A stretch of 64,000 nt of DNA from Pararhodobacter zhoushanensis (GTDB taxonomy: Bacteria; Pseudomonadota; Alphaproteobacteria; Rhodobacterales; Rhodobacteraceae), in the NCBI RefSeq assembly GCF_003990445.1, contig NZ_REEZ01000008.1, positions 62,001 to 126,000 on the forward strand, in the 5' to 3' direction. Both the position numbers and the translations under genes were made by a program. This document shows positions 30,293-47,394 of the stretch, one piece after another (the stretch's first letter is position 1; the number at the start of each line of letters is the position of its first letter). The notes beneath the pieces were generated by a model. It was not told where the DNA came from, did not search any database, and was given only the letters and a program-made list of their open reading frames with translations.

Positions 30293-30361
30293 TTGCTTAC
30301 TATCGCCCCGTTACATAGCCCCGTCAAGCAGTGGCCCCGCGAGATCATAGGGTGGAATATA

Positions 30362-30377
30362 TGTAAAGTAGTTGACA
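30362..30377 (+). promoter_or_regulatory. candidate -35 box and MarR operator before badH
   Basis: TGTAAAGTAGTTGACA is an imperfect palindrome (12 of 16 positions symmetric) that contains a TTGACA -35 hexamer at 30372. The -10 is poor. A second element, TTACATAG at 30311-30318, matches an arm of the palindrome at 20969-21000. Both fit a BadR-controlled promoter, unproven. Confidence 0.4.
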
Positions 30378-30508
30378 CAAAATTAGAGCGCCCCTAACCA
30401 TTGCACTTGAAGACTGGGAGGGATTCGCGTTGGTGCGGCCGGCTTTCCGCGCAAGAGGCGTGGATACGGTCCTGCGCGTTCATTCCCACAGCAGAAGGAG
30501 AGATCGCC

Positions 30509-31276
30509 GTGAAGGGTCTGAAAGGTAAAGTGGTTGTCGTAACCGGTGGTGGTGGGGGCATCGGTTCGGCCACCTGCCTGCGCTTCGCCGAAGAGGGCGC
30601 GAAGGTTGTGGTCGCCGATATCAACGCCGCCGGTGCCGAGGGTGTTGCCGACCAGATCCGGGCCGCAGGCGGCGAAGCTCTGGCACTGGGCTTTGATCTC
30701 ACCGATCCGGCCGCGTGCCAGACTGCCGTCGACCAGATCGAAGCCGATTTCGGCCCGATTGAGGTGCTGGTCAACAACGCGGGTTGGGATATCTTCGTCC
30801 CGTTCCTGAAATCCGGCCCGGATTTCTGGTCCAAGATCATCGACATCAACCTGCGGGGCGTGCTGAACATCACCCATCCCGTGCTGTCCAGAATGGTCGA
30901 GCGCAAAGCCGGCCGGGTCGTGTCCATCGCATCGGATGCTGCGCGCGTGGGGTCGTCGGGTGAAAGCGTTTACGCCGCCTGCAAGGCCGGCGTTGTCGCC
31001 TTTTCCAAGACGTTAGCGCGCGAGCATTCGCGCCATGGCATCACCTTCAACTGCGTCTGTCCCGGCGTGACCGAAACCGGCATGCTGGAAAACTTCATGG
31101 ACAGCGCCGGCAACAAGGAAAAGCTGCGCGAGGCCTTTACCCGCGCCGTGCCTCTGGGGCGTCTGGGCAAGCCCGAGGATCTGCCCGGTATCATCGCCTT
31201 CTTCGCCTCGGACGAGGCTTCCTTCATTACGGGTCAGGTGATTTCGGTCTCCGGCGGCCTGACCATGCACGGGTAA
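30509..31276 (+). CDS. badH: 2-hydroxycyclohexanecarboxyl-CoA dehydrogenase (BadH-like SDR)
   Basis: A 255-residue short-chain dehydrogenase. The GTG at 30509 with AAGGAGAG upstream gives the proper N-terminus (VKGLKGKVVVVTGGGGGIG); an upstream ATG frame is not needed. Seen: VVADINAAG for NAD+ preference, NNAGWDIFVPFL, Ser in VSIASDAARVG, and YAACK catalytic pair. Known BadH oxidises 2-hydroxycyclohexanecarboxyl-CoA to the 2-keto form with NAD+. Being directly upstream of badI (4-bp gap), as in R. palustris, makes this assignment strong. Confidence 0.85.
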   Translation: MKGLKGKVVVVTGGGGGIGSATCLRFAEEGAKVVVADINAAGAEGVADQIRAAGGEALALGFDLTDPAACQTAVDQIEADFGPIEVLVNNAGWDIFVPFLKSGPDFWSKIIDINLRGVLNITHPVLSRMVERKAGRVVSIASDAARVGSSGESVYAACKAGVVAFSKTLAREHSRHGITFNCVCPGVTETGMLENFMDSAGNKEKLREAFTRAVPLGRLGKPEDLPGIIAFFASDEASFITGQVISVSGGLTMHG

Positions 31277-31280
31277 CTTC

Positions 31281-32063
31281 ATGGACTATCAGGACATTCT
31301 GTATTCGGTGAAGGATGGCACGGCCACGATCACCATCAACCGCGCCGACAAATACAACGCCTTTCGCGGCCAGACCTGCGAAGAGCTGATCCACGCGTTC
31401 AACAAGGCGGGCTGGGACAAGTCGATTGGTGTGATCGTGCTCACCGGCGCAGGCGAGAAGGCCTTTTGCACCGGCGGCGATCAATCGGCGCACGAAGGCC
31501 AGTATGACGGGCGCGGCACCATCGGCCTGCCGATGGAAGACCTGCACACGATTATCCGCGACGTGCCCAAACCGGTGATCGCCAAGGTCCGCGGCTTTGC
31601 CATTGGCGGCGGCAATGTGCTGTGCACGATCTGCGATTTCACCATCGCCGGGGAAAGCGCGCAGTTCGGGCAAGTCGGTCCCAAGGTGGGGTCGGTCGAT
31701 CCGGGCTATGGCACGGCGTTTCTGGCCCGCGTCGTCGGTGAGAAGAAAGCGCGCGAGATCTGGTATCTGTGCCGCCGCTACAAGGCACACGAAGCACTGG
31801 CCATGGGGCTGGTGAACACGGTTGTACCCGATGACCAGCTCGACGCCGAAGTCGAGAGATGGTGCGCCGAAATCATGGAGAAGTCGCCGACCGCGATTGC
31901 TCTGGCCAAGCGCAGTTTCAACATGGACACCGAGCATCAGCGCGGTATCGCGGGACTGGGGATGCTCGGGTTGTCGCTGTATTACGACACCGACGAGTCC
32001 AAAGAGGGCGGCATCGCCTTCAAGGAAAAGCGCAAGCCGGATTTCCGCAAGTTCAACCGCTGA
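31281..32063 (+). CDS. badI: 2-ketocyclohexanecarboxyl-CoA hydrolase (BadI)
   Basis: A 260-residue crotonase-fold ring-cleaving hydrolase. It matches remembered R. palustris BadI over its whole length: NRADKYNAFRGQTCEELI, GAGEKAFCTGGDQSAHEG, GQVGPKVGSVDPGYGTAFLARV, and SFNMDTEHQRGIAGLG. The length of 260 is the family length. BadI opens the ring of 2-ketocyclohexanecarboxyl-CoA to pimelyl-CoA; it is related to MenB but works in the retro-Dieckmann direction. It lies between badH and aliB. This is the most specific marker of the pathway in the window. Confidence 0.95.
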   Translation: MDYQDILYSVKDGTATITINRADKYNAFRGQTCEELIHAFNKAGWDKSIGVIVLTGAGEKAFCTGGDQSAHEGQYDGRGTIGLPMEDLHTIIRDVPKPVIAKVRGFAIGGGNVLCTICDFTIAGESAQFGQVGPKVGSVDPGYGTAFLARVVGEKKAREIWYLCRRYKAHEALAMGLVNTVVPDDQLDAEVERWCAEIMEKSPTAIALAKRSFNMDTEHQRGIAGLGMLGLSLYYDTDESKEGGIAFKEKRKPDFRKFNR

Positions 32064-32071
32064 TGCGACGG

Positions 32072-32101
32072 CGGCGGGCGCGCTCGGGTGCCCGCCGTTT
32101 T
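32072..32101 (+). terminator. hairpin with short T-run after badI
   Basis: CGGCGGGC and GCCCGCCG form an 8-bp stem with a 10-nt loop, followed by TTTT. It could cause partial termination between badI and aliB, which starts 26 bp later. Confidence 0.5.
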
Positions 32102-32126
32102 CTGGTTGTGGGTTTGGGAGGACTTC

Positions 32127-33341
32127 ATGAAAACCATTTTCGACACCGAGGAACTGGACCAGATCCGCGACCTCGCCCGCAAGTTTGCGCAGGATCGGGT
32201 CGCTCCCGGCTATCTTCAGCGTGAACGCGAGGGACGGTTTGACACCGCTTTGATGCGCGAAATGGGCGCGCTGGGTCTGATCGCACCCGAACTGTCCGAA
32301 TCCTATGGCGGGATGGGCGCTCCGTACCTCTATTCGGGGGCGATCATTGAAGAACTGGGCAAGGCCGACTTCACCTTCGGCTATGTATCGCTGCTGGCGT
32401 CGCTGAACGGGCATATCCTGTCCAGCTTTGCCCAGCCCCATATCGCCGCCGACTGGCTGCCGGGGCTGGTAGCGGGCGAGCACCTGCTGGCCATTGCGCT
32501 GACCGAGCCCAAGGGTGGCTCGGACGCGGCCAATCTTGGGCTGAAAATGGAGCGGGTCGGCGATCACTACGTGATCAACGGCGAGAAGACATCGATCTCG
32601 GCCAACCAGATCGCTAAAGGGGTGATCACCTTCGCCCGGACCGGCCGCCCCGAGGACCGCGCCCATGGCGTTTCGGCGGTCCTGATCCCGCTGGATTTGC
32701 CCGGCATCACCACGTCCAAATTTTCCAACATGGGGCAGAACTCGATCGGTCACGGCTCGATCTGGTTCGACAACGTGAAAGTGCCCGCCGATCACCTGCT
32801 GGGCACTGAGGGCAAGGGCTTTGCGCAGGTAATGCAGGGTTTCGACTTTTCGCGCAGCCTGATCGGGTTGCAATGCGTCGGCACCGCACGCGCCAGTCTG
32901 GACGAGACCTGGGCTTACATTGGTGAACGGCAAACCTTCGGCAAACCTTTGGCCGCCTATCAGGGCATTACCCATCAGCTGGCCGATTTCGACACGCGGG
33001 TCGAGGCGGCACGGCTCATGTCCTACAACGCGCTCTGGCTCAAGGATCAGGGACTGCCCCACACGGCCGAGGCCGCGATGACCAAATGGTGGCCGCCGCT
33101 TCTGGCTTATGAGGCGATCCATGCCTGCCTGCTGATCCACGGCCACGCGGGCTATTCAGACACGCTGCCCTTTCAGCAACGCCTGCGCGATGTGCTGGGG
33201 CTGCAGATCGGTGACGGCACCGCGCACATCATGAAGAACATCATCGCCCGCGAGCGGGCGGGCCGTCAGGCCGTGGCGGGCTTACAGCCCGCCTTTCCGG
33301 GCGTCGGGGAGGGCGCGCGGATCAAAACGGGGAAACCCTAA
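32127..33341 (+). CDS. aliB: Cyclohexanecarboxyl-CoA dehydrogenase (AliB-like acyl-CoA dehydrogenase)
   Basis: A 404-residue acyl-CoA dehydrogenase; the ATG at 32127 follows GGGAGGAC. Seen: FAD and substrate motifs LLAIALTEPKGGSDAANL and ISANQIAKGVITF, the arginine motif AYIGERQTFGKPL, and near the C-terminus IGDGTAHIMKNIIARERAG. In most family members the catalytic base is the Glu of a YEGT motif; here the aligned residue is Asp (GDGT). This fits a specialised cyclic substrate. AliB oxidises cyclohexanecarboxyl-CoA to cyclohex-1-enecarboxyl-CoA, feeding BadK. Order badH-badI-aliB-aliA supports the call. Confidence 0.85.
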   Translation: MKTIFDTEELDQIRDLARKFAQDRVAPGYLQREREGRFDTALMREMGALGLIAPELSESYGGMGAPYLYSGAIIEELGKADFTFGYVSLLASLNGHILSSFAQPHIAADWLPGLVAGEHLLAIALTEPKGGSDAANLGLKMERVGDHYVINGEKTSISANQIAKGVITFARTGRPEDRAHGVSAVLIPLDLPGITTSKFSNMGQNSIGHGSIWFDNVKVPADHLLGTEGKGFAQVMQGFDFSRSLIGLQCVGTARASLDETWAYIGERQTFGKPLAAYQGITHQLADFDTRVEAARLMSYNALWLKDQGLPHTAEAAMTKWWPPLLAYEAIHACLLIHGHAGYSDTLPFQQRLRDVLGLQIGDGTAHIMKNIIARERAGRQAVAGLQPAFPGVGEGARIKTGKP

Positions 33342-33358
33342 CGCCTTGGGAGGATACC

Positions 33359-35002
33359 ATGGATTTCGACGCCATTCTCATTGAGCCTCGCCGCGCCGCA
33401 ATGGTCGCTGCGGGCTTGTGGCTGGACAAGACTGCCGACGACTATTTCGACGCCTGCCTTGCTGCGCACCCGGACGCCACGGCGCTGTCGTCGATCACGG
33501 TTGCCAACGGCGCGCGGCGTGACCTGACCTGGGCGCAGCTGGATCTGTTGGCGAACCGGGCCGCGCTGGGTCTGCGCAAGCTTGGCGTCGGGCGCAACGA
33601 TGTGGTGACCTGCCAGCTGCCCAACGGTTGGGAATTTGTCGCCACCTATCTGGGCTGCTCGCGCATTGGCGCTGTGTTCAACCCGGTCATGCCGATATTC
33701 CGCGAGCATGAGCTGCGCTTCATGCTGCGCCATGGCGAGAGCAAGGTCTTTCTTGTGCCCAAGCTCTTTCGCGCCTTCGACCACGAGGCGATGGCCGAGG
33801 CGATGCAGCCAGACCTGCCCGATCTGCAGCACATCGTTGTGGCGGGGGGTGCCGGGGCGAACAGCTTTGACGCGCTGATGAACAATCCCGCCTTTGACGC
33901 GGATCTTGCCACGATCACGCCTGAGACACGGCTTGGCCCCGATGATGTGTGCCAGCTGATCTACACCTCGGGCACCACGGGTGAGCCCAAGGGCGTGATG
34001 CACACCGCAAACACGATGTACGCCAACCTTGCCCCTTTCGCCGAGCGGCTGGGCATGGGTACAGATGATGTGATCCTCATGTTCTCACCGATGGCCCATC
34101 AGACCGGCTTTATGTACGGGCTGTTGCTGCCCTTGATGCTCAAGGCTCGCTTCGTGCTGATGGATACGTGGGACAATGCCTTGGCCGCGCGCACCATCGA
34201 AGGGGACGGTGTGACGTGGACGATGGCCTCGACCCCGTTCCTGCTGGACCTGACCGGCGCGGTGGAAGAGCTGGGGACCGATCCGCAGTCGCTGCGCATT
34301 TTCCTGTGCGCTGGCACGGTCATTCCCGGCCCGGTCGTCGAACGCGCGCAGCACGTGCTGGGCGCGCGGGTGATTTCAGCCTGGGGTATGACCGAGAACG
34401 GGGCTGTGACAACGGTTCTGCCCTCGGATCCATCGCAGCGTGCGGCCCAGACCGACGGCGTGCCGCTGCCCGGTATCGAGCTGCAGATCCGCGACCGTGA
34501 CGGACAAGCTGTCGACGAGCCCGGCTTTGAGGGCGAGCTCTACGTGCGCGGATGCTCGAATTTCGGCGGTTACCTGAAGCGCCCGCACTGGAACAACGTC
34601 GATGCTGACGGCTGGTTCGACACCGGCGACATCGCGCGCAGGGACGCCGAGGGCTATATCCGCATCTGCGGACGCTCCAAGGACATCATCATCCGCGGTG
34701 CCGAGAATATCCCGGTGGTCGAGGTCGAAGCCGCGCTGTTCAAGCACCCGGCCGTGCAGACCGTTGCCATCGTCGGCTATCCCGATGACCGGCTGGGCGA
34801 ACGCGCCTGTGCTTTCGTGGTGCCGAAACCGGGCCAGAGCCTGAGTTTCGACGCTATGACCGCACACCTGAAGTCGCATGATTTCGCCATCCAGTACTGG
34901 CCTGAACGGCTGGAACTACGCGAGGCCTTGCCTGCAACGGCCTCGGGCAAGATCCAGAAATTCGAGCTTCGCCGCCAGCTGCGCGAGGCAATGGGGCTGT
35001 GA
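33359..35002 (+). CDS. aliA: Cyclohexanecarboxylate-CoA ligase (AliA-like acyl-CoA synthetase)
   Basis: A 547-residue AMP-forming acyl-CoA synthetase. Seen: P-loop-like YTSGTTGEPKG near residue 200, AWGMTENGA, the Asp of GWFDTGDIA, RSKDIIIRGAENI, and the C-terminal catalytic Lys in ASGKIQKFELR. The ATG has a GGGAGGAT site. Next to badH, badI and aliB the natural substrate is cyclohexanecarboxylate, activated to its CoA ester with ATP. Other cyclic or aromatic acids cannot be excluded. Its stop overlaps the following SDR start (GTGA). Confidence 0.85.
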   Translation: MDFDAILIEPRRAAMVAAGLWLDKTADDYFDACLAAHPDATALSSITVANGARRDLTWAQLDLLANRAALGLRKLGVGRNDVVTCQLPNGWEFVATYLGCSRIGAVFNPVMPIFREHELRFMLRHGESKVFLVPKLFRAFDHEAMAEAMQPDLPDLQHIVVAGGAGANSFDALMNNPAFDADLATITPETRLGPDDVCQLIYTSGTTGEPKGVMHTANTMYANLAPFAERLGMGTDDVILMFSPMAHQTGFMYGLLLPLMLKARFVLMDTWDNALAARTIEGDGVTWTMASTPFLLDLTGAVEELGTDPQSLRIFLCAGTVIPGPVVERAQHVLGARVISAWGMTENGAVTTVLPSDPSQRAAQTDGVPLPGIELQIRDRDGQAVDEPGFEGELYVRGCSNFGGYLKRPHWNNVDADGWFDTGDIARRDAEGYIRICGRSKDIIIRGAENIPVVEVEAALFKHPAVQTVAIVGYPDDRLGERACAFVVPKPGQSLSFDAMTAHLKSHDFAIQYWPERLELREALPATASGKIQKFELRRQLREAMGL

Positions 35003-35757
35003 GCAAGGGACGGATCGCACTGGTCACCGGCGCGGGCGGCCCCATGGGCCGCGCGGTCGCGGCGCGGCTTGTGGCCGAGGGGGTCGCGGGACTGGTCCTG
35101 ACCGATATTTCCGCCCGTCGGCTCGAGGAAGCCGCAGCGTCCCTGCGCGACCTCCCCAGCGCGCCGCGCCTTGTGGTGCAGCGCGCAGATGTGACCCTCG
35201 CCGCCGAGGCGCGGGCCGTGGCCGAGGCGGCGCTGGCCGCGTTCGATCGGGTGGATGTGCTGGTTAATCTGGTGGGCGGGCTGCGGTCGAGCGCGCTCTA
35301 TTCCCCGTTCCTGTCGATGGACGAAACCCGCTGGCGGCAGACGTTTGATCTGAACCTGATGGGTGGTTTCCATCTGATGCAGGCGCTGGTGCCGGGGATG
35401 ATCGACCGCGAATTCGGGCGCATCGTCAACGTGGCGTCTATCGTCTTTGCCGGTGAAAAGGGACAAGCCGACTACGCCGCCGCCAAGGCCGCCGTCGCCT
35501 CGCTCACCCGGTCGCTGGCAGCGGAATTTGCCCCGCATGTGACGGTGAACTGCGTAGCCCCCGGCCTGACCAACACGTCGGTCACGCGCAACATGACCGC
35601 CGCCGAGACCGCGCGGCTGGTGGCCGGCAACTTCATACCCCGCCTCGCCGAACCTGAAGAAACCGCCGCTGCCATCGCCTTTTTCCTGCGCGACGAGGCG
35701 GCCTTTGTCACCGGCGAGATCCTTGCAGTGGCGGGGGGGATTCATCCCCATCTGTAG
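34999..35757 (+). CDS. SDR-family oxidoreductase at the end of the aliphatic-ring cluster
   Basis: A 252-residue short-chain dehydrogenase starting at GTG within the aliA stop. Seen: TGAGGPMGRAVAARL as a slightly unusual cofactor loop (GPMG), LVNLVGGLRS in place of the usual NNAG, Ser in VASIVFAG, and YAAAK catalytic pair. The atypical NLVGG segment suggests a subfamily distinct from BadH. No specific product can be assigned; its cotranscription with aliA points to a side or alternative oxidation step on a ring acid or its CoA ester. Confidence 0.85.
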   Translation: MSKGRIALVTGAGGPMGRAVAARLVAEGVAGLVLTDISARRLEEAAASLRDLPSAPRLVVQRADVTLAAEARAVAEAALAAFDRVDVLVNLVGGLRSSALYSPFLSMDETRWRQTFDLNLMGGFHLMQALVPGMIDREFGRIVNVASIVFAGEKGQADYAAAKAAVASLTRSLAAEFAPHVTVNCVAPGLTNTSVTRNMTAAETARLVAGNFIPRLAEPEETAAAIAFFLRDEAAFVTGEILAVAGGIHPHL

Positions 35758-35883
35758 CCGCTCGGGGCGCGACCGGGTTCAAGTCATCCCCTTCATTGCA
35801 CTATGGTCGGACACTCTTTGGTTGCAGAGACGGGGTCGATCGGCCATTGATCAGTCTGCATATTCAAGGCGAGATCCGGACCG

Positions 35884-38800
35884 ATGAGAAGTGACTTAAA
35901 GCCATTGGCGGCAGAGGCTTCGCGCAAACCGCTGGTGCTGGGCGCAGACCCGGAACTGGATAAGGAAAGTATTCAGAGCCCTGAGAATGCGCCACTTTTC
36001 ATCAAGCGCGGTGTGATGTTGCGCCAGTCCAGACAACTGGCAGAGAGCAAATCCCTGCTCACGTCGGTGGTCGCGGCTCATCCTGAAAATCTGGCCGCGC
36101 AGCATGAACTCGCCGTAACGCTGCGGCTGCTTGGTGACTACGTAAACAGCTTGGAGTTGAGTGAAAAGATCCTCTCCGACCGCCCCAATCATCGACCATC
36201 CTTGCTGGCTTGTATCGATACCAACGCGCATGCGCGGAATTTTGACGGGGCACTGGCAGCAGCGGAACGCGCTGTTGAGCGCCTGCCGGACGACGCGCAG
36301 CTCCTGACGAGACGCGGTGTGATGCTGCGGCATCTGAACCGGCTTGACGAAAGCCGCGCGATCCTTTCGACGGTCGTGGATACCTTCCCCGAGGACGTGG
36401 CCGCAAGGCATGAACTGGCCATCACCCTTCGGCTTTTGGGCGAACATGACCGCAGTCTGGAGATGACGCAAAGCATCCTGACACGTCATCCGGATCATCG
36501 GCCGTCGCTGCTGGCCTCTGTCGACGCCAACGTCCAGTCTGGGAATGTCGAAGCCGCCCTCGTAGCGGTAGACAAGGCACTTGAGAGTATCCCCAACGAT
36601 CGCCAATTGCTGACGAAGCGTGGCATAGTCCTTCGCCAGTTGAAGCGCCTGAGCGAAAGCAAATCCGTGCTTTCAGCCGTGGTCGACGCCTATCCCGATG
36701 CGTCAGGGGAAGCCCACGAGCTGGCAGTCACGCTGCGGCAAATGGGAGACTATGCCAACAGCCTGAAACGGAGCGAAAGGATCCTGAAGAACCACCCGGC
36801 GCATTGGCCGTCTCTGGTGGCTTGCATAGACACGAATACGCTTGCGCAGGATTTCGAAGCCGCTCTAGCGGCAGCAGACCGGGCCCTCCGTCGCCTTCCG
36901 GACAATGTGATGGTCTTGAGCAGACGCAGTGCCACGCTGCAGCAGCTTGGGCGGACCGATGAGAGCATCGCTGACCTGCGCAAGGCGCTCGCGCTCAACC
37001 CACGGGACTCAGACCTACGCCACAGCCTCGCCTTGTCGCTGCGGGCAACTGGCGAGAAACTGGAAAGCGACGCGATCTTTCGCTCCATTCTTGCCGAGGC
37101 ACCGGGTCATCAGGGTGCCTTGATGGGGCATATAGACGCTTTGCAGCAAGACCTTCAGCTGGATACGGCCCTGACATTGATCGATCAGGCCCTCGCAGCC
37201 GATCCCAAGAACATCGCACTTAGTGTCAAGCGCGCTGAAGTCCTCACCCATATGGGCAAGGACAGCGCAAGGGTCGAGCAGTTGCAGAGGGTTCATTCCA
37301 TCACGCCCGGGTTGCCTCATGTTGCCCGGGCGCTGCACGCTGCTTTGATCGAGGATTTCAGGTTCGACGAAGCCGATACCGTCTTGCGTACCTATGTCGA
37401 AGCGCCCGGTGACGCGCGTGAAATGCGCAAGCAGAAAATCAGGTTTTGTCTTGAAACGGGGCAGATTGCGAAAGCCCGCGATCTGGTGCAGGCGTGGCTT
37501 TCCGAGCTTCCGGACAGCCCTGACGCTCTGCTCTGCTTTTATCAGGTCCGGATTGCAGCGCTGCAACTTGATGATCTGGGTGCGCTTGAAGAGACGTTGC
37601 TGAAGGCCATTCCGGCTTCGGAGGAACTTGTCGCATCCATGACTTCCCTGCGTACCGCGGTCTGGGATTTCGAGGGGGCGTTACGCGTTTGCGAAAACTT
37701 CCTTGCCACTTACCCGAAATCCAAGCGGGTTCGCGAACGGCTGCTGGATCTTTTGTGGACCATGGGCGACCTTGAGCGCTTCAAGGCCGCATTGAATGAC
37801 CAGCCCGACGATCAGCATGAAGCGGCGTTCCGACTGATTAACCTTCTTATCGAGATACGATCCTGGAATCAGGCGCGAACCCATCTGGTCCGTCTGGAAA
37901 ATGCGGTACAGGGCCTCGCAAATCCAAGCGTGAGATCAAGTTTCCTGATGCGCATTCACAGAGCCTACGACAGGATGGGCGACGACGCTGCTCTCAAGAT
38001 CGCTGATCGCCTCGGGTCCGTTCCGTATCTGCGGCAGAACGTCAGACACTATGTCACCCTGGCAGACGGGCATCACGCCGGAAATGAACAGCCGAGACCA
38101 ACCAAGGGCGCTCCCCCTCTTCCCGAAATTCTATTCGGCGAAACATACGCGCCCCTGACGCTGCCCTCCGAGCAGCTCGCCGTTGTGAAGCGGATCGCCA
38201 AGCCGAGCATCGGCAACTATGAGACGTGGCTGAAGCAGGTCATGAAGGCCGCCTTCATCTCCAAGACATTGAACCACTGCTTCAAGGAGCATCCCGAGAG
38301 CTTCACGGGATTGGACCAAAGCGTGGAATTTCCGGATGCTCATATTCTCCTGAACCACGCGGCGCGCGGCGAAGCTTTTCTTATTGCCAGCACGCATCAG
38401 GGACCGCACCTGGCCGCGTGGTGGCTTGCCAAATCCATTCCAAATCTACGTATCTTGTCCAGCCAGCCTGCCATACGATCGGACTCTCCGATCAGCGGCG
38501 CGTCGCTGCTGATCGACGGATCCCCGGCGGGCGGGCGTGAACTTCTTTCGCTGCTCAAGAAGGGCACGGCAATCGCAGGATCGATCGATCAACCCATCAT
38601 CGTTGACAAGATATACGAAAATGATCGTTTCACCCTGGAGCTGTCACTTTTCGATTTGCCGCCGATCAAAGTGTCCAACCTGATCCCCCGACTGGCCTGG
38701 AAACACCGTTTGCCGAGTTACTGGATGGTAACGCGTCTGGACGCAGGGAAGATCCGCTTCGACCTTGAGCGCATGCCGGATGCGACCGAAGAAACCGGTT

Positions 38801-38970
38801 GGGCTGAATGGGCCCGGCTCTGGATGTCACATTACACAGGGCATCTTGAGCGGTATTTGCAAGAGGGTCCAGAGAACTTGAACCTGCCCAACGCGCTGTT
38901 CGAAGCGATTGCCAAGAGCATTCACAGGCACGGTGGTAGCGCCGCAATGGCAGACGGGAAGACTCTGTGA
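35884..38970 (+). CDS. TPR-repeat protein fused to a diverged LpxL-like acyltransferase domain
   Basis: A 1028-residue protein of two parts. Residues 38-445 are four tandem 102-residue units, each about three TPR-like helical hairpins (for example RGVMLR, HELAVTLR, SLLACIDTN recur in each). More TPR-like sequence continues to about 730. From about 760 the chain resembles LpxL/HtrB-type acyltransferases: FLIASTHQGPHLAAWWLA at H838, a KKGTAIAGSIDQP segment near 893, then FDLPPIKVSNLIPRLAWKHRLP and a final WMSHYTGHLERYLQEGPENL. The usual acidic residue of the HxxxxD/E motif is Leu here. No signal peptide is seen. It overlaps a radical SAM gene (GTGA). Function unknown; acyl or related transfer in a biosynthetic pathway is inferred. 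Confidence 0.7.
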   Translation: MRSDLKPLAAEASRKPLVLGADPELDKESIQSPENAPLFIKRGVMLRQSRQLAESKSLLTSVVAAHPENLAAQHELAVTLRLLGDYVNSLELSEKILSDRPNHRPSLLACIDTNAHARNFDGALAAAERAVERLPDDAQLLTRRGVMLRHLNRLDESRAILSTVVDTFPEDVAARHELAITLRLLGEHDRSLEMTQSILTRHPDHRPSLLASVDANVQSGNVEAALVAVDKALESIPNDRQLLTKRGIVLRQLKRLSESKSVLSAVVDAYPDASGEAHELAVTLRQMGDYANSLKRSERILKNHPAHWPSLVACIDTNTLAQDFEAALAAADRALRRLPDNVMVLSRRSATLQQLGRTDESIADLRKALALNPRDSDLRHSLALSLRATGEKLESDAIFRSILAEAPGHQGALMGHIDALQQDLQLDTALTLIDQALAADPKNIALSVKRAEVLTHMGKDSARVEQLQRVHSITPGLPHVARALHAALIEDFRFDEADTVLRTYVEAPGDAREMRKQKIRFCLETGQIAKARDLVQAWLSELPDSPDALLCFYQVRIAALQLDDLGALEETLLKAIPASEELVASMTSLRTAVWDFEGALRVCENFLATYPKSKRVRERLLDLLWTMGDLERFKAALNDQPDDQHEAAFRLINLLIEIRSWNQARTHLVRLENAVQGLANPSVRSSFLMRIHRAYDRMGDDAALKIADRLGSVPYLRQNVRHYVTLADGHHAGNEQPRPTKGAPPLPEILFGETYAPLTLPSEQLAVVKRIAKPSIGNYETWLKQVMKAAFISKTLNHCFKEHPESFTGLDQSVEFPDAHILLNHAARGEAFLIASTHQGPHLAAWWLAKSIPNLRILSSQPAIRSDSPISGASLLIDGSPAGGRELLSLLKKGTAIAGSIDQPIIVDKIYENDRFTLELSLFDLPPIKVSNLIPRLAWKHRLPSYWMVTRLDAGKIRFDLERMPDATEETGWAEWARLWMSHYTGHLERYLQEGPENLNLPNALFEAIAKSIHRHGGSAAMADGKTL
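35995..37218 (+). repeat. four tandem 306-bp units inside the TPR gene
   Basis: Units 35995-36300, 36301-36606, 36607-36912 and 36913-37218 encode 102 residues each. The first three are clearly alike (shared RGVMLR or RGIVLR, HELAVTLR, SLLACIDTN-type strings); the fourth is more diverged. They arose by internal duplication of a three-TPR block. Confidence 0.85.
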
Positions 38971-40109
38971 CAATATCCGCATCCATGCCCGGGACAGGCC
39001 AAAATCTGCTGGCCGACACGACAGTCAAACTGGCGCGCCAAACCAACGCGCGCATTCAGGGATTGATCGCACAGGCGCCGGATCTTCAAGCCCGCTACGA
39101 AACGGCGCGAAAGATCATTCGCGCCTTCCGGCGGCCCAGTTTTTACGAGGTCAGCCAAAAGTGCAATCTTTGGTGCGAGGGCTGCTATTACTTCGAAAAC
39201 GACAAACGGCAGGTTGTCGGAAACGAAATGTCCGATGACGGATGGGATGCCTTTTTTGCTGCCGAGGACGACAGAGGTGTCTCGATGGCCTATCTCGTGG
39301 GGGCCGAACCGTCGCTTTATCCCCACAGGCTGCGTGCGGCGACAAAGAATATCCGGTACGGCAAGATCGGGACCAACGGAACTGTCGTCATCCCCCGCGA
39401 CATCAGCTTTCGCATCGGCATATCGGTCTGGGGCAACGAAACGGACGACGCCGTGCTTCGGGGAGGGTCGGTGCTGCGCAAGGCCATGCGGAATTATACC
39501 GGCGACCCCCGTGCCGTGATGCTGTTCACGCTGTCTCCGTGGAACCTCGACAGTGTCGGGGACGTCTTGAAGGCAGCTGAAGATCACGACGTGAAACTCA
39601 CGTTCTCGATGTACTCGGCGACCACATCCTATCTTGCCAAACTCACTGCCGGTACGGCGGCGGACAGCAAGTATTTCCGCCTTGGCCCCTCGTTGGCCCG
39701 AGCCGTCTTTACGGATGCCGATCTCGCCAAGGCGCATGAGGCGATGCTCGATGCCATGCAACGCTATCCCGACACGGTCATCTTTTCAGCAGAATATGCG
39801 GATCTGATCACCCGGCCCGGTCCTTTGTACGACATGGATCCAGAGACCGGTTTGCCGCTTGATTGCGGCTCACGCATCCGCGATCCGCTGCGCTATTTCG
39901 ACACGGCGGGCACGCAGAAACAGGTGAAGTGCTGCACCCCCGATGTGGATTGCAATCATTGCCGTCTGTATAGCGGAAGCTGGTCGAAGCTTTTCAAGCC
40001 GACGCAAAAGCACCTCGCTGATCAGGGGTCATTCGAGGGTTGGTTGAGCATGATCGAAACCATCGGCCAGATTTTTCTGTATCCCTTTCCGTTTGAGAGC
40101 ACCGCATGA
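38967..40109 (+). CDS. Radical SAM protein with C-terminal cysteine cluster
   Basis: A 380-residue radical SAM enzyme. Seen: the CX3CX2C motif C66-N-L-W-C70-E-G-C73 for the SAM-binding iron-sulfur cluster, preceded by RRPSFYEVSQ, and a C-terminal set of cysteines (LDCGSR, then KCCTPDVDCNHC) that could hold an auxiliary cluster as in SPASM/twitch proteins. The start is GTG within the stop of the TPR gene; an ATG at 38985 is an alternative. It overlaps the P450 gene by ATGA. The product class (peptide modification, sugar or polyketide-like chemistry) cannot be read from the sequence. Confidence 0.85.
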   Translation: MTISASMPGTGQNLLADTTVKLARQTNARIQGLIAQAPDLQARYETARKIIRAFRRPSFYEVSQKCNLWCEGCYYFENDKRQVVGNEMSDDGWDAFFAAEDDRGVSMAYLVGAEPSLYPHRLRAATKNIRYGKIGTNGTVVIPRDISFRIGISVWGNETDDAVLRGGSVLRKAMRNYTGDPRAVMLFTLSPWNLDSVGDVLKAAEDHDVKLTFSMYSATTSYLAKLTAGTAADSKYFRLGPSLARAVFTDADLAKAHEAMLDAMQRYPDTVIFSAEYADLITRPGPLYDMDPETGLPLDCGSRIRDPLRYFDTAGTQKQVKCCTPDVDCNHCRLYSGSWSKLFKPTQKHLADQGSFEGWLSMIETIGQIFLYPFPFESTA

Positions 40110-41401
40110 TCCATGTCCCCCAACTGAAGCTGCGCGGTTCCGAGGTGACGCTGCGCTCGGCGGTCAAGGCATGTCGTCTCCCAGAGGAGACATGGCCCGA
40201 AGAAATCCTGCATCGTCGGCTCTGTGTTTCGCAGCGCGGTAGCAGAACGGTTGTCCTTCTGGCCGATCCCGCCGAGGTATCGCGTGTCCTCGTCGAAAGC
40301 GAAAAGCGATTTCCGAAATGGTTGCCCATCTATCGCCATTCGGCAGCGCGGGAGACGGGAAGCGGCACGATCTTCGCTTCCACAGAAGCGGACTGGGTGC
40401 CGCTGCGTCGCGCCATCAAACCACTGTTCCACAGCAGCCGGTGGTCGTTGCTTGTCGATGTCGCCAGACATGCGACGCTTGACGCCATCACCACGGGCAA
40501 CCCCACGAAGGTCGAGGCATTTTTCACCGCCATCTCAGTTGATGTGATCGTGCGCACGCTCGTCGGCGATGACGCGGACGCAACAGCGGATTACCAGCTT
40601 GCGGCCATCGCCCAAGGTCTGGTCGACAGGCAGCACGCCGGTGATCTGGGCGGGGCGATGCAGCAAATTCGAGCGCTTGCAAACATATGCAGCGCACGCG
40701 GTCCCGGCGATGCTGCGATCAGCGGCGTTGACATGGCAGGCGAACTTCCACCCCGCCCGCGTCCGATGGAAGAGCCCTTCCTGGCCGACAACCGTCTTGG
40801 CCTGCTTTATGCGGGTCAGGAGACCACGGCGTTGACCATGAGTTGGTGCTTCTGGATCCTGGGGCAGGACAAGGAGCTGCAAAGCAGATTGCGCACCGAA
40901 TGCCGCGAAGCGATGGCCGCCACAGGGTGCCTGTCTCCTGAGGCTGTCGGAAAGATGCCCCGGCTGATGGCAGTCTTTCGGGAAACCCTGCGCCTCCTGA
41001 CTCCGTCGTCGACCACCGTGCGATGCACGACACAAGACGAGACCCTGTGTGGTGAGGAGATTCCCGCAAACAGTGTCATCGTGGTTCCCATCTATGCAAT
41101 CCACCGGCACCGGGATCTCTGGGACGATCCTGACACCTTCGACGCCGAGCGGTTCCTGCGCCCGATCAAACATCCCATGGCCTTTCTTCCCTTCGCGGCG
41201 GGCCGCCACACCTGTGCGGCAGCTCGCAGCGTCATGTACGAAATGACCGCCGTCCTTGCGACGATGCTGGACCGGTTTGAGTGGGTGACACACGCGCCCG
41301 AGGACATGGGCATGGCCAACAAGCTTGTGCTGTCCCCCACGTCCGAGATGAAAGTGACAATCCAGGAGCTGGAGCCGAGCGGCGCTGCCGTCACGGCATG
41401 A
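40106..41401 (+). CDS. Cytochrome P450
   Basis: A 431-residue P450. Seen: I-helix oxygen-binding AGQETT (236-241), ExxR in FRETLR (E293-R296), and the haem-ligand region PFAAGRHTCAAA with the proximal Cys at 370. The residue two after the Cys is Ala rather than the usual Gly. N-terminus lacks a membrane anchor, so it is soluble. No ferredoxin or reductase gene is adjacent, so electron donors must be supplied elsewhere. It is the last of three overlapping genes and likely tailors the product of the radical SAM and acyltransferase-like proteins. A role in ring hydroxylation for the upstream cluster is less likely. Confidence 0.92.
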   Translation: MIHVPQLKLRGSEVTLRSAVKACRLPEETWPEEILHRRLCVSQRGSRTVVLLADPAEVSRVLVESEKRFPKWLPIYRHSAARETGSGTIFASTEADWVPLRRAIKPLFHSSRWSLLVDVARHATLDAITTGNPTKVEAFFTAISVDVIVRTLVGDDADATADYQLAAIAQGLVDRQHAGDLGGAMQQIRALANICSARGPGDAAISGVDMAGELPPRPRPMEEPFLADNRLGLLYAGQETTALTMSWCFWILGQDKELQSRLRTECREAMAATGCLSPEAVGKMPRLMAVFRETLRLLTPSSTTVRCTTQDETLCGEEIPANSVIVVPIYAIHRHRDLWDDPDTFDAERFLRPIKHPMAFLPFAAGRHTCAAARSVMYEMTAVLATMLDRFEWVTHAPEDMGMANKLVLSPTSEMKVTIQELEPSGAAVTA

Positions 41402-41520
41402 GAGACCAGGCCTGAACACGATTTCGGGCCAGCCGCTCAGATCTGTGGTATCGGGGACGACGGGATGGCGGCGCCTGTCCATGTAGACGGCGGGAAGGGC
41501 TTGAAACCCGGCTCATTCCC

Positions 41521-42384
41521 TCAGCTCTGCTCAAGTTCGGCCAGTGCAAGACCCCATTCGCCCGCGACCGCGTAGACCATGTAAACGCGCCCGTCTTCCT
41601 CATAGATCGCCGGGTCGCGCAACTGGTTTACCGGTTCGTCCACCGGACCGATAACAGACGGGACGACCGGCAAGTCCGCACCTTCCCACGCCGTCTCTGG
41701 CTGCAACAAAAGGGAGCGCGGTCCAGCAGCCCACTGAAGCCAGTCGCCCGCCAGATCAATCTCGCATTGCCACAGGCTTTCTGGCGCGTCACCGCGATTG
41801 GACCAGATCACCGTCAGAATGTCGCCCGTAACCCTGACCGCAGAATGCCGCATATCCGGGGTAAACAGGGAGGGACCTTTCTCCCATCCGGTCCAGCCAT
41901 CGCGCGAGCGATAGAACTGCCCGGGCATCGCGATGGCATAGGTCCAGCCGCCATGCCTGAAGATCCGCGCATACGGGTTCATCAGGTTCTCTTGGCCACC
42001 GGTAAAATGCAGCCCGTCGGCGGAATCGGCCAGCCGGGTATACTGAAACTTCACGACATCGCCGCCGTGATAGAACATGCGGATGCGCCGGGCCTCGTGA
42101 TCCACCACGACCTCGGGCGAAGCGAGGTGGTGGCTGAAGCCCGACTCAGCCAGTGGCAGAACGCCGGGCCCGTGGATCCGCCACGGGCCTGACAGATCAT
42201 CGGCATAGGCCAGCCGAATATGGTCGCCGCGATGATGCGCGAAATAGAGGTAATAGCGCCCGAGCGCACCGGGCACCCAGTCGGGCGCCCGGATCAGTGA
42301 CGGGCCGTTAATGTTGGTGCCGATCCGCGCGTGCATTCCCTGCGCGATGATCGGCCCATCCAGAAGGCGTTGCGCGCGCAGCAT
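41521..42384 (-). CDS. Five-bladed beta-propeller protein, GH43/GH32-like
   Basis: A 287-residue protein with repeated strand patterns typical of five-bladed propeller hydrolases: YYLYFAHHRGDHIRLAYADDLSGPW, ASPEVVVDHEARRIRMFYHG, YAIAMPGQFYRSRDGWTGWE and LRDPAIYEEDGRVYMVY. The last segment resembles the DPx(I/V) blades of GH43/62/68 enzymes. No signal peptide is seen, so it may be cytoplasmic. Catalytic residues cannot be assigned by eye. It starts one base after the stop of a TctC-type binding-protein gene, an odd pairing that suggests a sugar acid or glycoside-derived ligand (inference). Confidence 0.65.
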   Translation of the reverse strand: MLRAQRLLDGPIIAQGMHARIGTNINGPSLIRAPDWVPGALGRYYLYFAHHRGDHIRLAYADDLSGPWRIHGPGVLPLAESGFSHHLASPEVVVDHEARRIRMFYHGGDVVKFQYTRLADSADGLHFTGGQENLMNPYARIFRHGGWTYAIAMPGQFYRSRDGWTGWEKGPSLFTPDMRHSAVRVTGDILTVIWSNRGDAPESLWQCEIDLAGDWLQWAAGPRSLLLQPETAWEGADLPVVPSVIGPVDEPVNQLRDPAIYEEDGRVYMVYAVAGEWGLALAELEQS

Positions 42385-42385
42385 A

Positions 42386-43465
42386 TCAGCGGGTCAACTG
42401 GTCGATGTAGGATTGCATCAGCGCCAGCACCTCGGGCGAGACGGTTTCAACCACACCCATGATCTGCGCCGCATCGTCGGCAAGAACCACATCGGGTTGC
42501 GAGCCAAGCACATTCTGCGCCGCAGCCAGCATCTCGGGATCCTGCATCACCGCCTCATAGGCACGGGCAACGGCGTCGGTGATCTCGTCAGAGGTTTCGG
42601 GCGGCGTCACAAGGATCCAGGTCATGCCATCCGCAGCCGTCGAAAGGTAGCGCACCAGATCGTAGCTTGGGCCAGAAGGCGCCTCGCCCCGCACGTTGAC
42701 AAAGTAATCGTAGAAGGTCGGCAAGCTGGGCAGTTCGGCGTTGGTGGCTTCGGTGCCATCGGCGTTCGGGCGGCCCCAATAGAACAATCCAAGGCTTTGC
42801 CCGGTTTCGATCATTTCGGGAACCACACTGGTCAGCCAGTTGGAAACCGTCCCGTTGCGCAGGTCGATCTCGCCGCGTTGCATGGCAGCCATGGTTTCAG
42901 CCCCGCCCTGAAATCCACCGACGAATTGCATGTCGATGTCCAGCAGGTCCAGCGAGGCCGCGACGCGGATCTCGCTGGCACCTGGCGTGAAGCCGCCATA
43001 GCGCACGCTCTCAAGCCCGGCGAAATCCGCTGCGTTCTCGATCCCCAGTTCGGTCGCGGCGTGAACGACCCACGTATTCCCCAGACCACCGGCAAGTCCG
43101 AACTCGCCGAACGGCACGCGCAGGGCCTCGGGGTCCAGCACGCGCGTGGCACCGCCCCAGGCCAGCCAGCCCAGAGTCAAACCATCGGGCTCGGAATGAT
43201 AGACATGCTGGATGCCGCGCAGCAACGCACCGCCTGGCATCGGTTCGGCGATCACCTCGGGTTGGCCGGGGAGATGGCGTCCGATATGCTGCGCAAGGAT
43301 CTGGGCAAACAGCCCCGTCGCGCCACCGGGACCGGCGTTATAGACGATACGCACAGTCTCACCGGCGAAATCTGCTTCGGCCATTGCTGTACCCGGCAAA
43401 ACCGGGGTTAGCGCCAGCGCACAAGCCCCGGCCAGTAGAATGCGGCGACGATCAGCATTCAGCAT
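42386..43465 (-). CDS. TTT-family substrate-binding protein (TctC/Bug-like), orphan copy
   Basis: A 359-residue periplasmic binding protein with a Tat-like or Sec signal (DRRRILLAGACALALTPVLPGTAMA in outline; twin-Arg-like start). Mature part has the Bug/TctC pattern: VRIVYNAGPGGATGLFAQILAQ, then EPMPGGALLRGIQHVYHSEPDG and WLAWGGATRVLD. It is strikingly similar to the protein at 46253 on the other strand, so the two are paralogues. No membrane subunit gene adjoins it; it may share the TctA-TctB permease at 47395. Downstream on the same strand is the propeller protein. Confidence 0.87.
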   Translation of the reverse strand: MLNADRRRILLAGACALALTPVLPGTAMAEADFAGETVRIVYNAGPGGATGLFAQILAQHIGRHLPGQPEVIAEPMPGGALLRGIQHVYHSEPDGLTLGWLAWGGATRVLDPEALRVPFGEFGLAGGLGNTWVVHAATELGIENAADFAGLESVRYGGFTPGASEIRVAASLDLLDIDMQFVGGFQGGAETMAAMQRGEIDLRNGTVSNWLTSVVPEMIETGQSLGLFYWGRPNADGTEATNAELPSLPTFYDYFVNVRGEAPSGPSYDLVRYLSTAADGMTWILVTPPETSDEITDAVARAYEAVMQDPEMLAAAQNVLGSQPDVVLADDAAQIMGVVETVSPEVLALMQSYIDQLTR

Positions 43466-43713
43466 GGTTTTCTCCCTTTGTTTCGGCCCATCGGCCGCTC
43501 CCTGCCGTCACGTTCCGATGTTCGCCCAAGGAAAGGAAGACGCAGGTTCGGAAAAGCCTCTTTCGCCTTTTGCGAAAGCGTCGCTGCGATTTACCTGCCG
43601 CGAATTGGAAAAGCTGCCTTGCCGCTTGCACGGCTTCCGGGCCCGGGGTCGGTCATCTTAGGGTCAGGCGAGACGACCCGCCGACGCGGGTCCGCACAGG
43701 AGGGGACTGCCCA

Positions 43714-45180
43714 ATGACCGACGACACGCCGAAAGTTCGCGAAATCCGCCAGAGCAAAGACAGGTTCCTGTCGTCGGATATCTTCGAAACCGGGCGCATG
43801 GTCTTCCCGCCGCGGAATGGCTCGGGTCATGTCAGCGAACTTGCCCGCGACGTGCCGGTCTATCATCGCTGCGATGTCTTGGTGGTCGGGGGCGGCCCGG
43901 CGGGAACAGCGGCGGCGCTGGCCGCGGCGCGGACTGGCGCGGACGTGGTGGTGATGGAGCGCTACAATCACCTTGGGGGGCTGTCGACCGGGGGCGTGGT
44001 TATCTGGATCGACCGGATGACCGACTGGTCGGGCAATCTGGTGATCCGCGGCTTTGCCGAGGAAGTGCTGGACCGCCTGCCAGCCGAGGGCAAGGCCGGA
44101 CCCGGACGCAACCTCTGGGGCGCACAAGACCCGGATCTGGCGAAATACTGGCGGCTGAGAACGTCGGCCTTCCACGGCATTGTCACCTGGGCGCCAACCA
44201 TCGATCCTGAGCGCCTGAAGCTGACCTCGCAGGAATTGCTGATCGAGGCGGGTGTGCGGATCGTCTATCACTCATGGGCAGCGGTCCCGGTTGTCGAGGA
44301 TGGCGCGGTGCAGGGCGTGATCTTCGAATCCAAAGAGGGACGCCAGGCCCTGATGGCACGCGTGGTCGTGGATTGCACCGGCGACGGTGATATCTTTTCG
44401 CGCGCAGGTGCCGAGTTCGACTCGGATATCGAAGAAGGCGACGTCCACCACTCGATGAACACAGGCTTTATGCTGGGTGGCGTCGATATGGATACATGGC
44501 TCGATTTCCGCCTGAAAGACGAGGCCGGATTCTCGGAGTTCAACCAACTGGGCCGTGAGACGCTTGGCTTCTTTCAAGCGCCCTATGTTTCGTGGCGGCA
44601 GGACATCGCCCTTTTCCTGGGCCCGCGCCAATCGGGGCTCAGCGCGTTGAACGTCGACGAGATGACCGAGGTGGAAATTCGCTCGCACCGCTTCATGCAG
44701 AAGCATTGCGAGTTCTTCCGCCAGCATGCGCCCGGTTTCAAAGATGCCTACATGCTGCTCAGCGCCCCGCAACTGGGGGTGCGCCACACCCGCAGGCTCG
44801 GCGGCGTCGGACGGATCGAGCGGTCGCAATGGGGCACGGGCATGATTCATGCCGACGAAGTTGGCGTTTCCCCGTCGGTGTCACCAAAGTTTCCGGTAAT
44901 CTCCGTTCCGTATCGGGCTCTGGTCCCTGCCCGGCTGGACGGGTTGCTGGCAGCGGGGCGGCACGTGTCGTGCGATGCCAACAGCCACGGTTTCATGCGC
45001 GAAATCCCGCAATGCTGGCTGACAGGACAGGCGGCAGGAGCCGCAGCCGGGGTGGCCGCGAACAGGGGCGTGCAGCCGCGCGACGTTGATATCGCTGAGC
45101 TTCAGGCGACACTTCGCGCGCAGGGCGCGCTGGTACGCGACCCGAGCGAAGCGTCCCCACTTGCACCGGCAGCCAGTTGA
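43714..45180 (+). CDS. FAD-dependent oxidoreductase (FAD_oxidored family)
   Basis: A 488-residue flavoprotein. The ATG at 43714 follows AGGAGGGG and gives a tidy N-terminus; a longer upstream frame is spurious. Seen: VLVVGGGPAGTAAALAAARTGADVVVMERYNHLGG as the FAD-binding fold (about residues 51-86), STGGVVIWIDRM, VVDCTGDGDIFSRAGAE, and the C-terminal AGRHVSCDANSHGFMREIPQCWLTGQAAG. This family includes many oxidoreductases of unknown substrate found beside TTT and TRAP importers. It lies between the two binding-protein genes and is followed by a LysR gene. Confidence 0.85.
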   Translation: MTDDTPKVREIRQSKDRFLSSDIFETGRMVFPPRNGSGHVSELARDVPVYHRCDVLVVGGGPAGTAAALAAARTGADVVVMERYNHLGGLSTGGVVIWIDRMTDWSGNLVIRGFAEEVLDRLPAEGKAGPGRNLWGAQDPDLAKYWRLRTSAFHGIVTWAPTIDPERLKLTSQELLIEAGVRIVYHSWAAVPVVEDGAVQGVIFESKEGRQALMARVVVDCTGDGDIFSRAGAEFDSDIEEGDVHHSMNTGFMLGGVDMDTWLDFRLKDEAGFSEFNQLGRETLGFFQAPYVSWRQDIALFLGPRQSGLSALNVDEMTEVEIRSHRFMQKHCEFFRQHAPGFKDAYMLLSAPQLGVRHTRRLGGVGRIERSQWGTGMIHADEVGVSPSVSPKFPVISVPYRALVPARLDGLLAAGRHVSCDANSHGFMREIPQCWLTGQAAGAAAGVAANRGVQPRDVDIAELQATLRAQGALVRDPSEASPLAPAAS

Positions 45181-45213
45181 CAGGACCAGCCGTCGGCGTC
45201 ACGTCTTGACGCT

Positions 45214-46110
45214 ATGGATTTCATCGTAAACGTGCGCACCTTTCTGGCGGTCGGTCGGCTGGGCAGCTTCTCGGCCGCCGCTCGCGAGATCGGCACTGTA
45301 CCCTCCGTGGTGTCGAAACGGGTTTCCCAGCTAGAACACATGTGCCGCGCGCCGTTGTTCGTGCGCTCGACCCGGGGTCTGGAGCTGACCCCGGTCGGGC
45401 GAAGCTGCCAGCAGAAATTTGCCGAGTTGCTGTCTGAAATCGAAGCGATGGTTCATGCCGGACCGCAAAAGGGCCTGCTGTTCGAGCATATTCGGGTCAA
45501 ATGCCCGACGGCCCCGATCCTGCCGCTGTTTACCGAGATTCTGTGCGATTTCCAAACCGCGCACCCCGGTGTCCGCATTGATCTGGACATCATCGATCGT
45601 TCGGTGAACCCGGTTGAAGAGGGCTATGACATCGCTCTGGGCGCGCTTCCGGCAACCTACCCGCATGTGCATGATGTCATGCTTTGCCCGCTTCGGCGCT
45701 GTGCGGTGGCGGCGCCGGGCTATCTCGAAACCCACCCCAAGCCCGAACATCCGCGCGATCTCTCCCGGCTGGACGCGCTGGTCTACCGCGCTGCGGGCAA
45801 TATCTGGACCTTCGCAGGCCCGTCAGGCGAGTTGACGGTCGAGGTGAACGCGGTTTTCACATCGTCTGACAGCCGGATCCTGCAACGCGCTGCAATCAAG
45901 GGTCTTGGCGTTGCGGTGATGAGCGAAACACTGGCGCGCGAAGGCATCGAACAGGGCAGTCTGGTCGAGATCCTTCCGGGATGGCGCGTGCCCGATCTGC
46001 AACTGAAAGCGATGGTACCAGAACGACGGCTGCGCAACGCAGCGGTTCGCCTGCTGCTTGACGCATTCGTTGCGGCCACAGCGCCAGATACCTCTGGCGC
46101 TCAGCTCTGA
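45214..46110 (+). CDS. LysR-family transcriptional regulator
   Basis: A 298-residue LysR regulator with N-terminal HTH (FLAVGRLGSFSAAAREIGTVPSVVSKRVSQLE in outline) and a LysR substrate-binding domain (VRIDLDIIDRSVNPVEEGYDIALGA). It starts 33 bp after the FAD oxidoreductase and ends 142 bp before the TctC-type gene, all on the plus strand, so unusually it is read with rather than against its probable targets. It most likely controls the surrounding uptake and oxidation genes. Confidence 0.9.
   Translation: MDFIVNVRTFLAVGRLGSFSAAAREIGTVPSVVSKRVSQLEHMCRAPLFVRSTRGLELTPVGRSCQQKFAELLSEIEAMVHAGPQKGLLFEHIRVKCPTAPILPLFTEILCDFQTAHPGVRIDLDIIDRSVNPVEEGYDIALGALPATYPHVHDVMLCPLRRCAVAAPGYLETHPKPEHPRDLSRLDALVYRAAGNIWTFAGPSGELTVEVNAVFTSSDSRILQRAAIKGLGVAVMSETLAREGIEQGSLVEILPGWRVPDLQLKAMVPERRLRNAAVRLLLDAFVAATAPDTSGAQL
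46080..46101 (+). terminator. hairpin at the 3' end of the LysR gene
   Basis: AGCGCCAGA and TCTGGCGCT form a perfect 9-bp stem with a 4-nt loop inside the last codons; a T-rich stretch (46116-46125) follows 14 bp later. A second perfect 7-bp stem lies at 46133-46151 (GGCAAGT/ACTTGCC). Together they may end the LysR transcript. Confidence 0.4.
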
Positions 46111-46252
46111 CCGCCTTTCGTTTTTCACGACAGGCAAGTTCGTGACTTGCCAGCTTCCTTCACATCGGATTTCGCGCTTGGATCTGACGATCACGAGCAA
46201 CGGTTTCCCCTGGGGAGAGGGGCCGCCGTAGTGTCGTCACAAGGGAGGAACG

Positions 46253-47338: not shown

Positions 47339-47347
47339 AGGGACGAC

Positions 47348-47374
47348 GGTTCGGCGGGCATTGGCCCCCGAACC
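47348..47374 (+). other. intercistronic hairpin between TctC-type and TctAB genes
   Basis: GGTTCG pairs with CGAACC and, past one unpaired base, GGGC pairs with GCCC. It starts 10 bp after the binding-protein stop. No T-tract. Confidence 0.5.
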
Positions 47375-47394
47375 ATCATAAGAGGAAGTTCATC

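Follow-up and report, generated by a model that had tools for sequence, protein, structure and literature searches.

An acyltransferase, radical SAM and P450 gene trio in Pararhodobacter zhoushanensis is a reduced version of a recurrent biosynthetic-type cluster

The 64,000-nucleotide stretch of Pararhodobacter zhoushanensis analysed here (contig NZ_REEZ01000008.1, positions 62,001 to 126,000; hereafter the window, numbered from its first letter) carries on its forward strand three overlapping genes, A, B and C, encoding a tetratricopeptide repeat (TPR) protein with a C-terminal acyltransferase domain, a radical S-adenosylmethionine (radical SAM) enzyme and a cytochrome P450. The trio belongs to a real, recurrent biosynthetic-type cluster that is undescribed in the literature as far as we searched, and the window holds a reduced but constrained version of it. 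With slightly more confidence than doubt, we read the trio as a reduced form of a modular cluster, spread by horizontal transfer, whose product would be a small amphiphile that is acylated and otherwise decorated. A sequence-only reading of this DNA had proposed a biosynthetic system for a perhaps acylated molecule, and this holds in part: the cluster is conserved, of a biosynthetic type and equipped with a domain of the LpxL acyltransferase superfamily, but the trio is not a complete unit, a carbamoyltransferase surviving only as a remnant, and the acyltransferase is closer to VexE than to LpxL.

According to the list of open reading frames (ORFs), gene A (35884-38970, 1028 residues) overlaps gene B (38967-40109, 380 residues, GTG start) by 4 bp at a GTGA junction, and B overlaps gene C (40106-41401, 431 residues) by 4 bp at an ATGA junction, exactly as the sequence-only reading had it. 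The 4-bp B/C overlap is found in the window and in the loci L022, L008, L009, L012, L013 and L042. Stappia, in contrast, has no A/B overlap, with about 236-359 bp between the called ORFs.

To judge the linkage of these genes across genomes, we defined as core those loci whose B protein is at least 43% identical to that of the window. There are 14 such loci in 13 genomes: the window, a genome of the same genus (G018, L022), Stappia (L008, L009), Shimia (L010), Marinobacterium (L011) and Nioella (L012, L013), together with G099 (L023), G170 (L042), G886 (L056, L057), G1083 (L058) and G1221 (L087). The B protein of L087 is 45.6% identical, and that of L022 was counted from its two pieces; for L042, L056-L058 and L087 the comparison drew on a reduced reference set and not on all window genes, and gene calling was crude throughout (L015 and L025, both non-core, were mis-called). 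The core count leaves out L014, L015, L017, L060, L024, L043, L044 and L088, as well as L016, L025, L026, L059 and L079, and the B matches in most Alteromonas plasmids, an Enterobacter plasmid, Methanosphaera and G695.

A P450 gene is present in the cluster at all 14 core loci, and in most it lies directly beside B; one methyltransferase gene intervenes in L011, and a membrane-bound O-acyltransferase (MBOAT) gene with its neighbour in L058 and L087. The TPR protein with its lysophospholipid acyltransferase-type (LPLAT) domain is found in 10 of the 14 (in L011 a contig end truncates it, in L022 it is split over two frames and in L042 it has diverged), while L023, L058 and L087 have the MBOAT (assigned by Pfam for L023, by similarity for the other two) and a second gene in its place; neither acyltransferase was seen in L056, a 12.8-kb contig. 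In L058 the MBOAT's neighbour matches ALGX/SGNH below the threshold (E 0.00049); its counterpart in L023 gave no match. The remaining genes vary: a carbamoyltransferase of one group in five loci (L022, L008, L009, L023, L056), a class-I methyltransferase in four (L010-L013; by Pfam for L010 and L011, by similarity for L012 and L013), an MTS-type methyltransferase in two (L057 by Pfam; the L056 copy is 78% identical to it) and a sulfotransferase-like gene in L012 (by Pfam) and L013 (by similarity). Because such linkage recurs in distant genomes, the combination is not a chance one, and the question raised earlier of whether the trio is conserved across distant genomes has a positive answer, though gene order varies. 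The earlier impression that it matches no known pathway also survives a literature search, which, judged by titles and abstract beginnings, found no description of a radical SAM, P450 and acyltransferase combination; the paper PMC8305402 proved to have no bearing on it. Several of the Proteobacteria carrying the cluster are, by genus, marine.

The trio is nevertheless incomplete: in close relatives the P450 gene has a carbamoyltransferase gene next to it, of which the window retains remnants only. The alignment to G018 covers window positions 29940-41436 at 92% and, after a break, continues from 50830 at 96%, and the carbamoyltransferase gene of G018 (in L022) adjoins the P450 gene in convergent orientation. 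On the reverse strand of the window, at 41397-41498, there are 3'-end remnants of the lost gene, corresponding to residues 626-640 and 543-567 of the G018 protein: blastn aligns 41451-41498 (48 bp, inside the carbamoyltransferase gene) with L022:11701-11748 at 89.6% (E 2.7e-11), and the two pieces that tblastn finds, weak when taken singly (E 0.04 and 0.08), have the expected order and strand. No carbamoyltransferase match was found elsewhere in the source genome at E 0.001. The common ancestor of the window and G018 copies probably carried at least four genes. A 9.3-kb segment (41499-50829), with genes of TctA, LysR, FAD_oxidored and other types, starts where the carbamoyltransferase gene was lost; it is absent from G018 at this site, lies outside the proposed pathway and ends where the L022 alignment resumes. 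The nearest regulator (LysR type, 45214) and transporter (TctA, 47395) among the window genes scanned are both in this segment, and a by-eye check of the small ORFs near the cluster recognised no precursor peptide beside the trio, in agreement with the sequence-only reading, which had seen no precursor, transporter or regulator nearby.

The relatives' fourth gene has Carbam_trans_C and N domains in common with O-carbamoyltransferases of the TobZ/NodU type. The carbamoyltransferases of the cluster align with one another over their full length (39-85%), but with two others, from loci that have a TPR-LPLAT and no B, only some 265 residues at the C-terminus can be aligned; unlike the TobZ/NodU type, those of the cluster form a separate group tied to it in the loci inspected, the window having the remnant only. 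Among 244 genomes of the window's order, a sample without a known carrier as positive control, there was one partial carbamoyltransferase match and no full-length match at E 1e-60.

With respect to protein A, Pfam places TPR repeats (TPR_19, TPR_14, TPR_16 and others) across most of its length, and residues 1-723 (35884-38052) are predicted to form the TPR superhelix that had already been read from the sequence as a scaffold. For the C-terminal part, residues 724-1028 (38053-38970), Pfam reported no acyltransferase domain; the one credible NCBIfam match is the VexE model NF011721, which hits the window domain (E 2.2e-11), all seven members of our set A2 of such domains (best E 1.2e-17) and all eight further TPR-LPLAT domains, most strongly L075, L076 and L077 (E 1.5e-47 to 3e-127), of which L077 has glycosyltransferases around it by annotation. 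When A2 was compared with these three VexE-like domains by hhalign, the probability was 99.8% (E 2.3e-28). In a profile search of the Protein Data Bank, the lipid A acyltransferase 5knk came first, with a weak E of 0.059. VexE, as described in PMC9597891, is a Vi capsule enzyme of 11 TPRs and an LPLAT domain that acts as a UDP-GlcNAc C-6 hydroxyacyltransferase with acyl-(acyl carrier protein) (acyl-ACP) as donor; it requires H466 and D532, and a Tyr takes the position of the Asp or Glu of other LPLATs. Protein A likewise joins TPR and LPLAT parts, in that order, in one chain, and it has the same dyad: the predicted catalytic His838 (38395-38397) and Asp902 (38587-38589) are invariant in 15 of 15 aligned proteins and 64 residues apart, close to the spacing of about 65 shared with VexE, and the H+5 position, the second of the H(X)4D/E motif, has no acid in either. 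In view of the profile matches and the shared dyad, we therefore infer that A is a VexE-type TPR-LPLAT acyltransferase of the LpxL superfamily; the LpxL-like domain proposed earlier was thus assigned to the right superfamily, but its specific relative (by NCBIfam and hhalign) is VexE and not LpxL itself. Protein A differs from VexE in its longer TPR part, in its linkage to a radical SAM enzyme and a P450, in the lack of recognised capsule genes around it and in its NCBIfam score, 42.7 bits against an equivalog cut-off of 1200, far enough below that we have not filed it as VexE.

Protein B has only a weak Pfam Radical_SAM match (E 0.021, under the Pfam cut-off). The CX3CX2C motif (39162-39185; Cys66, Cys70, Cys73) and four further cysteines between 39864 and 39962 (Cys300, Cys322, Cys329, Cys332) are unchanged in all 16 proteins aligned, which bears out the assignment as a CX3CX2C radical SAM protein with a C-terminal cysteine cluster, and the seven are consistent with a SAM cluster plus one auxiliary cluster, in a twitch-like pattern. 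Among proteins of solved structure, SkfB is the best match (E 3.4e-6). None of the curated NCBIfam families fits B, all scores lying under their cut-offs; among the peptide-maturase models, PapB gave 20.4 bits against 340 and ScmE 20.1 against 400. Protein B resembles the Twitch/SPASM enzymes (SkfB, the PapB family) in its CX3CX2C motif, its C-terminal set of four cysteines and its weak profile matches, but differs in falling under every curated cut-off, in having no precursor peptide found with it and in forming a conserved family of its own. A role like that of viperin in defence was considered and rejected: the NCBIfam score was 16.0 bits against 180, and the PADLOC match (E 0.00084, residues 61-138) covers only the generic radical SAM core.

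The identity of protein C is straightforward, and confirms what had been proposed: it has a full-length Pfam P450 match (E 4.5e-50), an ExxR motif at residue 293 and the FxxGxxxC heme-binding motif with the heme ligand Cys370 (41213-41215), and the ExxR and the heme cysteine are invariant in 12 of 12 proteins. Among its best solved relatives are CYP4B1, CYP46A1, CYP120, CYP3A4 and BM3; most of these act on hydrophobic substrates, which is a weak hint. For comparison, the source genome has four places matching this P450, that of the trio included.

As had been suspected from the letters alone, the trio lies below its surroundings in G+C, A (0.583) and B (0.577) clearly and C (0.620) only slightly, compared with a mean of 0.641 (standard deviation 0.024) for the 47 further genes called in the window that have 200 codons or more; the lowest of these has 0.578, one gene as low as A or B. 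Matches to B are scattered, with 5 in 101 close relatives, 7 in 391 genomes of the order (5 core), 7 in 385 of the class (2 core), 4 in 398 of the phylum (3 core), 1 in 48 of the order of G886, 4 in 25 of the genus of G205 (2 core) and 2 in 60 of the family of G1083; these samples overlap, and the window's own genome is counted where it was drawn. This distribution, as expected for horizontal spread, supports the transfer that the sequence-only reading had suggested, but the transfer was not recent, because G018 has the three genes at the corresponding position, with flanking sequence that is about 91-96% identical. Carriage by phages was set aside after one scan of viral contigs, with two peptide patterns, found no relative. 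The trio is apparently under purifying selection, the ratio of nonsynonymous to synonymous substitution (dN/dS) between window and G018 being 0.26 for A, 0.044 for B and 0.235 for C, with 0.04-0.14 for five flanking genes. Compared with the window, identities at other loci are 43-67% for B, 14-36% for the domain of A and 21-38% for C outside Stappia (65% in Stappia), and the pairwise identities of A, B and C correlate (Mantel r 0.90-0.92, p 0.0002, 9 to 12 loci).

The analysis directly shows that the genes are linked, which domains they encode, that their catalytic residues are conserved, that dN/dS lies below 1 and that a fourth gene was lost; for the amphiphile we infer the following sequence of reactions. 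First, B with its one extra Fe-S cluster would make an invariant core by radical modification of a primary metabolite, and the P450 may then oxidise this core or its acyl chain. Next, by homology with VexE, the LPLAT domain of A would use His838 and Asp902 to acylate a hydroxyl or amino group of this molecule, with acyl-ACP as the donor, and the TPR superhelix would guide the lipidated product in the way suggested for VexE; this acyl transfer is the best-founded step. Finally, in the relatives, a carbamoyltransferase, methyltransferase or sulfotransferase would cap the product, the first of these having been lost in the window.

Several observations weigh against such a pathway. The conserved gene set has no export, carrier-protein or precursor gene, and eight non-core loci with more distant B homologues have no P450 next to B as far as inspected: L014 has TauD and a nonribosomal peptide synthetase (NRPS), L015 and L017 are annotated with PaaA_PaaC-type genes, Pfam finds PaaA_PaaC and thiolase in L060, L024 has a TPR-LPLAT, an Asp/Arg-hydroxylase-like protein and a sulfotransferase, and L043, L044 and L088 have a TPR protein with a remainder that by eye resembles an alpha/beta hydrolase. 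The Mantel correlation leans on close pairs, A and C evolve faster than the flanking genes, G018 has one-base shifts in A and B, in runs of G or C, that are either decay or sequencing errors, and in one genus (G1083, G1221) a lasso-like operon precedes the B cluster. Moreover, the deep branches of the three trees disagree: Shimia and Nioella group with the window in the B tree (100/99), on the side of the capsule-type LPLATs in the A tree (99/99) and with G099 in the C tree (92/94), in trees that have midpoint roots and several open forks. This disagreement indicates that partners have been exchanged, and the cluster would seem to consist of a constant radical SAM core with exchanged P450 and acyltransferase partners and changeable decorations.

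Pushed further, the amphiphile pathway could represent a new class of natural product or membrane amphiphile, a possibility that we hold only tentatively. Starting from a primary metabolite, the constant radical SAM enzyme would make a single core without precedent; diversity would come from acyltransferases that can be exchanged (VexE-type TPR-LPLAT, or the membrane protein MBOAT with its partner), from P450s that diverge fast and from capping with carbamoyl, methyl or sulfo groups. The VexE architecture, familiar from a capsule anchor, would then serve small-molecule biosynthesis. If so, Proteobacteria would contain a class of pathway without the NRPS and polyketide synthase hallmarks that genome-mining tools look for, and VexE-type TPR-LPLATs would extend from capsule anchoring to small-molecule tailoring. 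With a minimal set of three or four genes, the pathway would be directly testable.

An unlikely alternative is a pathway for a glycolipid or capsule anchor, in which A would acylate a nucleotide sugar at a hydroxyl, like VexE, and B and C would act on the sugar or on the acyl chain of a surface glycolipid, whose carbamoyl, methyl and sulfate caps would resemble those of Nod factors. The TPR-LPLATs of L075 and L076 do lie near genes of polysaccharide-export type (for L076, polysaccharide export and sugar ATP-binding cassette (ABC) genes by annotation; for L075, a glycosyltransferase, and ABC export-like genes by eye), a Capsule_synth protein stands beside the L011 cluster, and sulfotransferases occur in L012, L013 and L024; the activity of VexE on UDP-GlcNAc (PMC9597891) points the same way. 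However, no capsule-export or glycosyltransferase gene was recognised by Pfam among 14 flanking window genes, nor in the shared gene set, the window-side LPLATs fall outside the capsule branch of the tree, and a carbamoyltransferase could act on non-sugars.

Less probable still is the tailoring of a ribosomally synthesised and post-translationally modified peptide (RiPP) made elsewhere, by B, C and the acyltransferase. The weak radical SAM matches include SPASM peptide maturases and SkfB, the best NCBIfam P450 for C is the RiPP enzyme ApyO, and this explanation is kept alive by the cluster's position in G1083 and G1221 after an operon of Asn_synthase, ABC and NTP_transf_5 genes, with Transglut_core3 and a precursor-like ORF in G1083. 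Against it, this lasso-like operon accompanies only 2 of the 14 core loci, in one genus, scores against RiPP models are far under their cut-offs, and no conserved small ORF beside the cluster was recognised by eye in 11 loci, on which ground a RiPP with a local precursor was rejected. Least credible is a decaying remnant without present function in the source genome: the carbamoyltransferase is destroyed with no match elsewhere, dN/dS of A and C exceeds that of the flanks and G018 has its one-base shifts, but the three window ORFs are open, their catalytic residues intact and dN/dS well below 1 in all of them.

Some neighbouring and related contexts deserve mention. The beta-oxidation-type genes upstream of the trio (30401-35757) are kept in G018, but as part of the system they were set aside, on incomplete evidence: in the loci compared with all window genes, a single generic AMP-binding match stood beside another core locus (L013, 23%). 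In one genus (L058, L078, L087) a P450, MBOAT, second gene and radical SAM gene, in that order, lie directly behind the lasso-like RiPP operon, which has a 51-residue precursor-like ORF (L078:7800-7955). Distant B homologues occur beside PaaA_PaaC-type proteins and thioesterase, MaoC or thiolase genes (L015:11267-13664, L017:11165-13520, L060:5866-9096), and elsewhere after a TPR protein with a C-terminal half that by eye is alpha/beta hydrolase-like (L043:9532-12032, L044:7944-10612, L088:7976-10470). Finally, a second type of cluster without B (L073:9201-19339, L074:3960-12015) shares with that of the trio a TPR-LPLAT, a P450 and a carbamoyltransferase, and in L073 a radical SAM enzyme, but its P450 is a tandem fusion, and in place of B it has an adenylation enzyme, with a B12-binding radical SAM protein in L073 and an ACP in L074.

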